Of a stretch of DNA of 64,000 nt, positions 22,700 to 26,955 are shown piece by piece (the stretch's first letter is position 1; each line of letters begins with the position of its first letter). The DNA is from Micrococcaceae bacterium RIT 802. Its GTDB lineage: Bacteria; Actinomycetota; Actinomycetes; Actinomycetales; Micrococcaceae. The stretch is from contig JAFEMX010000005.1 in NCBI GenBank assembly GCA_016892645.1, positions 124,001-188,000 on the forward strand. The letters are read 5' to 3'. Made by a program: the position numbers and the translations under genes. The notes under the pieces are model-generated. The model was not told the DNA's origin. It saw nothing but the letters and a program-made list of their open reading frames with translations, and searched no databases.

Positions 22700-24214
22700 A
22701 TGACACAGCACATCATCGCCATCGACCAGGGCACCACAAGCTCGCGTGCCATCATCTTCGACCACGATGGGGGCATCGTTTCCGTCGGTCAAAAGGAACA
22801 CGAACAGATCTTCCCGAAGGCGGGCTGGGTCGAACACGATGCAACGGAGATCTGGGCCAATGTCCGCGAAGTCGTCGGCAGCGCCCTCTCCAAGGCGAGC
22901 CTGACCCGCCACGACATCGCCGCCGTCGGCATCACCAACCAGCGCGAGACCACTGTCGTCTGGGACAAGAACACCGGAAAACCCGTCTACAACGCGATCG
23001 TCTGGCAGGACACCCGGACCCAGGACATCGTCGAAGAGCTCTCCGCCGACGGCGGAGGGGACCGCTACAAGGACCGTGTCGGGTTGCCCCTGGCCCCGTA
23101 CTTCTCCGGCACCAAGATCAAATGGATCCTCGACAACGTCGACGGGGTGCGCGAGCGGGCCGAGGCGGGGGACCTGCTCTTCGGCAACACCGATACCTGG
23201 GTGACATGGAACCTCACCGGCGGAACCGACGGCGGCATCCACATCACCGACGTCACCAACGCGTCCCGCACGCTGTTCATGGACCTGGAAAGGCTCACGT
23301 GGGACCGGGACATCCTCGCCGACTTCGGCGTCCCGGCCTCGATGATGCCCGAGATCAAATCCTCCTCCGAGGTCTACGGCACCGTGCACACCAACCAGCT
23401 GCTGCGCGAGGTCCCGGTTGCCGGCATCCTGGGCGACCAGCAGGCCGCCACCTTCGGCCAGGCGGCGTTCTCGGCGGGAGAGGCCAAGAACACCTATGGA
23501 ACCGGCTGCTTCCTGATCTTCAACACCGGCGAGGAGATCGTGAAGTCCTCCAACGGGTTGCTCACCACGGTTGCCTACCAGATCGGCGACGAGAAGCCGG
23601 TCTATGCACTCGAGGGTTCCATCGCCGTCGCCGGGTCCCTGGTGCAGTGGCTGCGGGACAACATCGGCATGATCTCAACGGCCGCCGAGGTCGAGGACCT
23701 GGCCGCGGAGGCCGAGGACAACGGCGGGGTCTACATCGTCCCCGCCTTCTCCGGCCTCTTCGCCCCCTACTGGCGTCCCGACGCCCGCGGTGCCATCGTC
23801 GGGCTCACCCGCTTCGCCAACCGCCACCACATCGCCCGGGCCGCCATGGAGGCCACCGCCTTCCAGACCCGGGAGGTCCTCGACGCCGTGAACGCCGATG
23901 CCGAGGTCCCGCTGACCGAGCTGCGTGTCGACGGCGGCATGGTGGCCAACGAGAGCCTCATGCAGTTCCAGGCCGACATGTTGGGGGTCCCGGTGGTCCG
24001 CCCGGAGATCATCGAGACCACCGCCCTCGGCGCGGCCTACGCCGCTGGACTGGCCGTCGGCTTCTGGAAGGACCGCGACGAGCTGCGCGCCAAGTGGGCC
24101 GAGGACACCCGGTGGGAACCGGCCATGGAGCAGGACGAACGCGAGCGCCAGATGCGGCTGTGGAAAAAGGCAGTGACCAAGACGTTCGATTGGGTCGACG
24201 AGGACGTGCAGTAA
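22700..24214 (+). CDS. glpK: Glycerol kinase
   Basis: 504 residues, standard length for the FGGY kinase family. It phosphorylates glycerol with ATP. Motifs in order are [17 protein letters not shown] at the N-terminus, [13 protein letters not shown], the QDTRT substrate region, [13 protein letters not shown] and the C-terminal [20 protein letters not shown]. The ATG at 22700 (GAAGGCAGACACC ahead of it) gives the MTQHIIAID start. A longer upstream reading would extend into glpF and was rejected. It closes the glp operon and is followed by a strong hairpin. Confidence 0.97.
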
Positions 24215-24236
24215 CGGCACGACGACCACCCGGCAG

Positions 24237-24265
24237 GACCCCGGCGCCCTTGCGGTGCCGGGGTC
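24237..24265 (+). terminator. Terminator hairpin after glpK
   Basis: GACCCCGGCGCC pairs with GGTGCCGGGGTC over 12 bp (one G-U pair) around the loop CTTGC. It separates the glp operon from the leuS promoter 12 bases further on. Confidence 0.7.
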
Positions 24266-24276
24266 CCGCCGTGCTG

Positions 24277-24288
24277 TAGACTGGCCGC
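24277..24288 (+). promoter_or_regulatory. Leaderless promoter of the leuS leader
   Basis: TAGACT (24277-24282) is followed by 6 bases (GGCCGC) and then ATG at 24289. Transcription should therefore begin at or next to that ATG. A TTGCGG at 24250 is too far (21 bases) to be a normal -35 and lies in the glpK hairpin. Confidence 0.6.
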
Positions 24289-24315
24289 ATGTCAGCAGTC
24301 CTACGTCTTTCCTAG
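24289..24315 (+). CDS. Putative leuS leader peptide, 8 codons
   Basis: ATG TCA GCA GTC CTA CGT CTT TCC TAG encodes MSAVLRLS. Two of its codons are CTA and CTT, leucine codons that are scarce in the surrounding G+C-rich genes. It starts exactly where a leaderless transcript from the TAGACT box would start, and a hairpin begins at its stop codon. Candidate attenuators of this kind have been predicted before leuS in some Streptomyces species. I infer that ribosome stalling at the leucine codons reports low charged tRNA-Leu. Confidence 0.5.
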   Translation: MSAVLRLS

Positions 24316-24361
24316 CCGGGACCACCATCCCGGCTGCCCCTTGGATGCCAAGGGGCTTTTT
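24314..24361 (+). terminator. Tandem hairpins with intrinsic terminator in the leuS leader
   Basis: Hairpin A pairs AGCCGGGA (24314-24321) with TCCCGGCT (24328-24335). Directly next to it, GCCCCTTGG (24336-24344) pairs with CCAAGGGGC (24348-24356) and is followed by five T's (24357-24361), a textbook intrinsic terminator. It sits 90 bases before leuS and therefore inside the leuS transcript. An alternative helix CATCC (24326-24330) with GGATG (24343-24347) would break both hairpins and could act as a short antiterminator. I could not find a longer one. Confidence 0.7.
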
Positions 24362-24450
24362 CGTGTTCGGCTTCCGTGACCTTCCCGAAGGCGGCGGCAG
24401 CCGGGACTGGACGACCCACATATTCTGCACTACCAGAAGGCGAACACATC

Positions 24451-26952
<2,502 letters not shown>

Positions 26953-26955
<3 letters not shown>

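Follow-up and report, generated by a model that had tools for sequence, protein, structure and literature searches.

The stretch of DNA analysed here, termed the window, comprises 64,000 nucleotides of Micrococcaceae bacterium RIT 802. Within it, the gene leuS, encoding leucyl-tRNA synthetase, lies downstream of glpK, which was identified by NCBIfam and ends at 24214. The region between them holds a compact leader whose parts, listed here with the features on either side, are all on the plus strand:

24236-24266, plus strand: GC hairpin without a T tail, 3' of glpK and separate from the leader, predicted from the sequence
24277-24282, plus strand: -10 promoter hexamer TAGACT, read directly, with a spacer of 6 bases to the ATG
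24289-24315, plus strand: leader-peptide frame MSAVLRLS and stop, putatively leaderless, from the sequence, an alignment of 58 elements and the homologue described as leaderless in S. lividans (PMC8079986, partial text)
24301-24303, plus strand: leucine codon CTA (codon 5), read directly
24307-24309, plus strand: last leucine codon CTT (codon 7), the presumed sensing codon; CTT or CTA is terminal in 110 of 111 leaders
24314-24335, plus strand: hairpin P1, 8 bp with a loop of 6, arms 24314-24321 and 24328-24335, from folding and covariation
24336-24356, plus strand: intrinsic terminator P2, 9 bp with a loop of 3, arms 24336-24344 and 24348-24356, from a terminator scan, folding and covariation
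24357-24361, plus strand: T5 tail of P2, read directly
24362-24365, plus strand: CGTG past the T tail; the TG at 24364-24365 is shared by at least 90% of the 58 aligned elements
24435-24440, plus strand: putative leuS ribosome-binding site AGAAGG, predicted from the sequence
24451-26955, plus strand: leuS, with a GTG start at 24451, from the ORF, NCBIfam TIGR00396 (E 1.3e-283) and 80 relatives

The original prediction had described a -10 box, a 6-base spacer, an 8-codon frame, a hairpin at its stop codon and a T-tailed terminator before leuS, and all of these can be read in the sequence. The codons of the frame are ATG TCA GCA GTC CTA CGT CTT TCC TAG. Its two leucine codons are indeed rare, as had been claimed, with CTA making up 0.6% and CTT 3.5% of the 316 leucine codons in six genes of the window. 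P1 begins within the stop codon, 7 nt past the first nucleotide of the last leucine codon, or 8 nt if the outer A-U pair is not counted. P2 starts on the base right after P1 and ends 94 bases before the leuS GTG. Folding of 24289-24366 gave exactly P1 and P2, at -32.7 kcal/mol (z -3.6), which none of 200 shuffled sequences equalled. In a simple scan of 24150-24500, P2 was the terminator-like site (two registers listed, 0.2 expected), and the same scan found no two-hexamer promoter there. The GC hairpin at 24236-24266, with the leuS -10 box 10 bases further on, is perhaps the glpK terminator. The G at 24355 and the TG at 24364-24365 match the transcriptional pause pattern G-10 Y-1 G+1, the G lying ten bases before the TG. 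The conserved TG and this upstream G suggest an RNA end at 24364. No tRNA gene was detected within the window, and no curated Rfam family matched it at gathering score. A T-box or another known Rfam leader was thereby rejected. The 11 Rfam matches to 24200-24480 all fell far below their gathering scores, with a best E of 0.25.

A script search found the same layout before 61 of 80 related leuS loci and not in the remaining 19, where the covariance model described below also finds nothing. Such recurrence before leuS argues that the layout exceeds chance. The loci without the element comprise seven Kocuria, two Rothia, two Propionibacteriaceae and eight singletons (Glutamicibacter, Citricoccus, Micrococcus, Auritidibacter, Yaniella, Nesterenkonia, Tessaracoccus and Acaricomes), of which the Citricoccus locus, L051, has 75 bases upstream of the match, too few to judge. 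Among 62 script-found elements the distance from TANNNT to the start codon is 6 nt in 59 and 7 nt in 3, the script having required a spacing of 5-8 and preferred 6-7 when choosing the start codon. In 59 copies found by the model it is 6 nt in 55 and 7 nt in 4.

The covariation check proposed with the original prediction was carried out on an alignment of 58 elements, the window included. Both P1 and P2 covary, and the leucine codons are kept. Over the 18 pairs of the two hairpins, 89.0% of cells hold standard pairs, against 80.9% after shuffling and at most 52.6% after sliding. The covariation score is 0.214, against 0.094 for shuffled alignments, and 0 of 500 shuffles reached it. The covariance model built on this alignment, R1, matched at least 112 of 197 genomes of the family, from at least 19 of 31 genera (E <=0.01; leader-model matches, whatever gene follows), and at least 33 of 396 genomes in the phylum (E <=0.001), 19 of them from one genus, g12. 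Both genome counts are lower bounds, since scans of more than 40 genomes used stricter filters and the best 30 places of each scan became loci. The window's own genome holds one R1 match.

Of the 59 model-found loci that were fetched, 58 precede leuS, and the other, L111, lies before leuA as identified by NCBIfam. The 33 phylum matches stand before leuS in 30 cases (29 by tblastn, and L158 by NCBIfam), before leuA in two (L111 and L159) and before ilvB in one (L160). Two second matches, L156 and L157, were taken as ilvB leaders, L157 by NCBIfam and L156 by its likeness to L157. The two leuA copies are weak matches from other families; the L111 peptide is MTSTLTLLLLS, with P1 8 nt from its last leucine codon, and a hand count gave the same distance in L159. 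The same leader precedes two diverged types of LeuS (L082-L140), with identities to the window protein of about 57-84% in some genomes and 38-42% in g12, g15, L086, L087 and L089, the last three being genomes of the window's own order. The leader seems to have outlasted a replacement of the LeuS gene, or to have moved with the gene.

The 19 g12 leaders were found by R1, the window among its sequences, with E values from 1.5e-10 to 3.8e-8. Seventeen of them encode MRAVRLLLSEPR followed by a stop, identical to the LeuL2 peptide of S. lividans, which none of the 58 R1 sequences carries. According to the part of the report available, LeuL2 precedes leuS in S. lividans TK24, is leaderless by RNA-seq and has a hairpin and a uridine stretch downstream of it (PMC8079986). 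Because the g12 copies share the LeuL2 peptide, the window leader can be placed with a recorded kind of leuS attenuator, and, as judged from the sequences, it is homologous to Streptomyces LeuL2. The statement in the original prediction that Streptomyces leuS attenuators had already been predicted also proved right: the available text of a 2005 study gives them for S. coelicolor and S. avermitilis, in a classical form with an antiterminator (PMC1262725). The leucine codons, the start spacing, both hairpins and the place before leuS are conserved jointly, a pattern that gives good support to the predicted attenuation by tRNA-Leu charging. We regard it as highly probable that the window contains a ribosome-mediated transcription attenuator of leuS.

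The geometry of the leader was compared over 111 distinct elements, namely 58 from the 80 leuS loci and the window and 53 found by the model, after removal of identical rows. L007 (incomplete), L029 and L068 (odd) and L034 (no clear P1) were dropped before the count, and the leuA copy L111 was included. In 99 of the 111, the pairing of P1 begins 8 nt from the first base of the last leucine codon. This distance is 7 nt in four (the window among them), 4 in two, 6 in one, 11 in four and 13 in one. The 8-nt distance occurs with leaders of 8, 9, 10, 11, 12 and 17 codons; the distance therefore follows the leucine codon, not the stop. P1 and P2 are separated by 0-1 nt in 103 elements and by 0-3 nt in all 111, while the span of P1 ranges from 15 to 60 nt. 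The original prediction had singled out the small size of the leader and its side-by-side hairpins as unusual. Both are ordinary here, with 8 codons being the norm of the family (74/111) and a gap of 0-1 nt being typical.

The last leucine codon is CTT in 102 of the 111 leaders and CTA in 8, against a background of 3.3% CTT and 0.7% CTA among the 5372 leucine codons that the 80 loci have in their leuS regions. The 203 earlier leucine codons of the leaders are CTG (78), CTC (63), CTT (55), TTG (6) and CTA (1). Sixteen further, mostly weaker copies, mostly of other genera and including two that repeat members of the 111, show a distance of 8 in ten, 7 in three and 9, 11 and 13 in one each; their last leucine codon is CTT or CTA in 14 and CTC in 2. 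The four leaders with P1 at 11 nt (L008, L010, L014 and L016) have one leucine codon. In these four and in L152 it is a lone CTA, with P1 three nucleotides further off; the five come from three Arthrobacter sp. genomes, Glutamicibacter sp. JC586 and one further genome.

Several considerations bear on the reading of these counts. Of 85 other T-tailed hairpins in the loci, 24 also have a strong hairpin at a gap of 0-1, compared with 102 of the 111 leaders, and abutment by itself is therefore not unusual where DNA is GC-rich; the rows of this comparison are related, and any P value is only indicative. The stretch between the leucine codon and P1 is itself conserved in sequence, and part of the fixed spacing may thus reflect descent. 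R1 fixes the -10 box, the start and P1 in a single register and prefers similar matches; since the copies fetched were also the best-scoring, the 53 model-found elements lean towards the same spacing. We found no statement of an eight-nucleotide rule in the literature searched, which consisted of partial texts without figures.

As to mechanism, we lean slightly towards a composite reading in which the window carries a leuS attenuator homologous to LeuL2, with a leaderless start, a stall at the last leucine codon and a steric block of P2. Its steric component, in which the position of the ribosome and not re-pairing of the RNA makes the switch, we rate at a little under an even chance, and most of the remaining probability falls to pairing or boundary forms of the switch. 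The leaderless start, the stalling and the read-through are what we infer for the window. Transcription would start at the A of the ATG at 24289, a position suggested by the 6-nt spacing and the leaderless homologue, and a ribosome would start on the 8-codon peptide right at the 5' terminus of the RNA. With Leu-tRNA plentiful, the ribosome would pass the last rare leucine codon, reach the stop and leave, after which P2 would form and transcription would end near 24364. With Leu-tRNA short, it would wait with the last leucine codon in the A site. P1 would then begin 11 nt past the first nucleotide of the P site (10 in the window if the outer A-U is counted), at the mRNA entry, which is the first place where it could stay paired outside the mRNA channel.

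The bacterial channel is reported to hold 11 such nucleotides, and frameshift stem-loops 11-12 nt from the P-site codon, but not 13, to hinder the A-site tRNA (PMC7282821, partial text). Given an 11-nt channel, P1 would be just intact with the ribosome at the last leucine codon and would be being opened one codon later. Since P2 follows P1 by 0-1 nt, a looped-out P1 would leave only about 8-9 unpaired nucleotides between the ribosome and the terminator. At that distance the ribosome would block closure of P2 in RNA polymerase and allow leuS to be transcribed. In the accessible part of an E. coli study, termination fell from about 90% to below 10% when a stop codon lay 5 bp ahead of the terminator, and 10-15 free nucleotides, counted from the A site, are regarded as necessary (PMC4824070). 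It is these data, together with the fact that P2 directly follows P1, that lead us to favour a steric block of P2.

A classical switch of the trp/his type, in which the stalled ribosome would cover the 5' arm of P1 and the 3' arm of P1 would pair with the 5' arm of P2, appears unlikely. The 2005 prediction for two Streptomyces took this form (PMC1262725, partial text). When a ribosome footprint of 13 nt is assumed, at least 4 nt in the 5' arm of P2 find upstream partners in 18 of 55 elements (five being left out), and such pairing is worth -5.0 kcal/mol to the window. For the candidate antiterminator GAGCGG with CCCCTC in Arthrobacter, the columns are paired in 64.7% of cases against 64.1% when shuffled (82/500), and it was rejected as no better than the shuffles. 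The only switch offered by the original prediction, a 5-bp helix of 24326-24330 with 24343-24347 (CATCC with GGATG), was found in 1 of 111 elements, the window alone, and is broken in both other copies read from the same genus; it was rejected. Across the 111 elements, the natural combinations of P1 and P2 gained no more from re-pairing than 1110 chimeras did, whichever footprint was used (8, 11, 13 or 15 nt). Antiterminator pairing as a general device was rejected on this result and because 110 of the 111 have no P2 letters paired upstream when the ribosome edge is placed at eight nucleotides. Neither the 58-element alignment nor the 111 elements yielded a conserved or cognate-specific antiterminator exclusive with the terminator. 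The leucine codons also lie outside P1, unlike the control codons of trp. From the energy gain at the 13-nt footprint, a weak local pairing switch is possible in the window.

A different doubt concerns whether the window's own copy is fully active. It might be an ancestral attenuator decaying in this lineage, which keeps its parts and responds weakly. Within the genus the leucine run shrinks from CTA CTT CTT (L141) to CTA CGT CTT (the window) and to CTA alone (L142, like L002). Against this, P1 and P2 of the window are both intact, P1 contains a double change that preserves a pair (alignment columns 53/103), and the two remaining leucine codons are among the rarest kinds. We consider decay to be quite improbable.

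Still more doubtful is a 'fast' boundary attenuator of the kind described for C. glutamicum ilvBNC, where the base of P1 extends into P2 and weakens the terminator, a form that has mutational support in that species as far as the available text shows (PMC11857589). Letters of P2 could give P1 three extra Watson-Crick pairs in 8 of the 111 elements, two in 25 and one in 41. However, no boundary pair is possible in 37, the window could form only one, and when the ribosome edge is set 8 nt past the first base of the last leucine codon, no P2 letter pairs upstream in the folds of 110 of the 111. Competition for a boundary trinucleotide was rejected as a general rule, as three shared pairs are possible in those 8 alone. 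Finally, that the hairpins are merely the glpK terminator and the frame a product of chance is scarcely credible: glpK is the upstream gene in the window and in 26 of the 61 other element-bearing loci, but in 35 of the 61 the DNA examined upstream (up to 1.5 kb) gave no match to glpK, by which this reading was rejected, and before leuS the leucine codons, the start, P1 and P2 are all kept as a set.

The steric block of P2 was also considered beyond leuS. Leaders of ilvB, located through their protein family and independently of the model, combine a branched-chain amino acid (BCAA) peptide with abutting hairpins in 55 of 60 loci across the class, as found by script, and the P1-P2 gap is at most 3 in 53 of these. 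Their spacing is looser than that of leuS, with 8 nt in 23 of 55 and 7-9 nt in 36 of 55; a codon-blind count over 50 of the 60 loci was highest at 7, 8 and 11 (20, 22 and 21). The ilvB leader of the window genome (L217) has a frame ending in EVLLVTQRGA and a gap of 2. Related ilvB attenuators have been explained in print, in the portions available, by overlapping antiterminators, and the lack of a convincing ilvB antiterminator was noted in 2005 (PMC1262725, partial text). We put forward, tentatively and as something short of probable, that a large actinobacterial attenuator family (leuS, some leuA and ilvB) operates with no base pairs being exchanged. Its GC hairpin, located exactly at the mRNA entry whenever a rare sensor codon occupies the A site, would compete with scarce aminoacyl-tRNA, as frameshift stem-loops do, and its looping out would set the stalled ribosome against the terminator, to be blocked sterically.

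These observations extend the leuS attenuator recorded in Streptomyces to at least 19 of 31 sampled genera of the family, counted as model matches, and to other Actinobacteria. They also provide a rule by which such leaders may be found and tested: a rare CTT or CTA, eight nucleotides, a hairpin and an adjoining terminator. If the steric reading is true, it would explain why no convincing antiterminator is present in some actinobacterial BCAA leaders, and the leader would be a minimal amino-acid sensor of 75 bases. The kind of leuS attenuator is itself already recorded; what merits testing by specialists is the geometry rule, together with the missing antiterminator.

Among known systems, the nearest is LeuL2, which shares with the window leader the downstream leuS, a peptide with a leucine run, a hairpin and a uridine stretch. 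The LeuL2 peptide has 12 codons, and its TGA lies inside P1 in the g12 copies, whereas the window peptide has 8 codons and a stop at the base of P1. In place of the leucine run of LeuL2 the window has two leucine codons that are not adjacent; 105 of the 111 leaders have at least two leucine codons and 6 have one. LeuL2 is reported as leaderless, and the 6-nt spacing from the -10 box to the ATG in the window fits the leaderless start predicted there.

The ilvBNC leader of C. glutamicum and the Corynebacterium ilvB-II motif resemble the leuS leader, so far as the published portions available describe them, in having a BCAA leader peptide, adjacent hairpins and an intrinsic terminator; the control codons of C. 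glutamicum ilvBNC are reported as CUU and GUA (PMC11857589). These leaders are described as switching by an overlapping GCC trinucleotide or by pairing of the P1 loop with P2, and the leuS leaders have no such conserved overlap. For M. tuberculosis ilvB1, the accessible text describes a hairpin that arises upon stalling of the ribosome at control codons and whose formation is blocked once the ribosome is at the stop, and proposes mutually exclusive structures (PMC13236596). The polarity is the same as that predicted here, with a hairpin upon stalling that is prevented once the ribosome is at the stop. In contrast to the exclusive structures of that partial account, P1 and P2 of the leuS leader share no letters in our folds.

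In E. coli pyrBI and pyrE the terminator is blocked by a close ribosome, and the closeness depends on a UTP-limited polymerase; in the leuS leader it would arise from the stall and the looped-out hairpin. Proximity of the pyrBI/pyrE type would mean a ribosome within about 10-15 nt of the terminator hairpin; in the leuS leader 8-9 unpaired nucleotides would separate the two if P1 stays folded. The trp and his attenuators of E. coli sense charged tRNA through a leader peptide and have a first hairpin and a terminator, with the trp control codons in the 5' arm of hairpin 1. Sensing through a leader peptide is common to these and the leuS leader, but the latter is without a conserved 2:3 antiterminator and its control codons lie outside hairpin 1. 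The frameshift-stimulating stem-loops of dnaX and HIV place a hairpin 11-12 nt from the P-site codon, as the leuS leader would with a stalled ribosome; those stem-loops serve frameshifting, whereas the leuS element is a regulatory leader.
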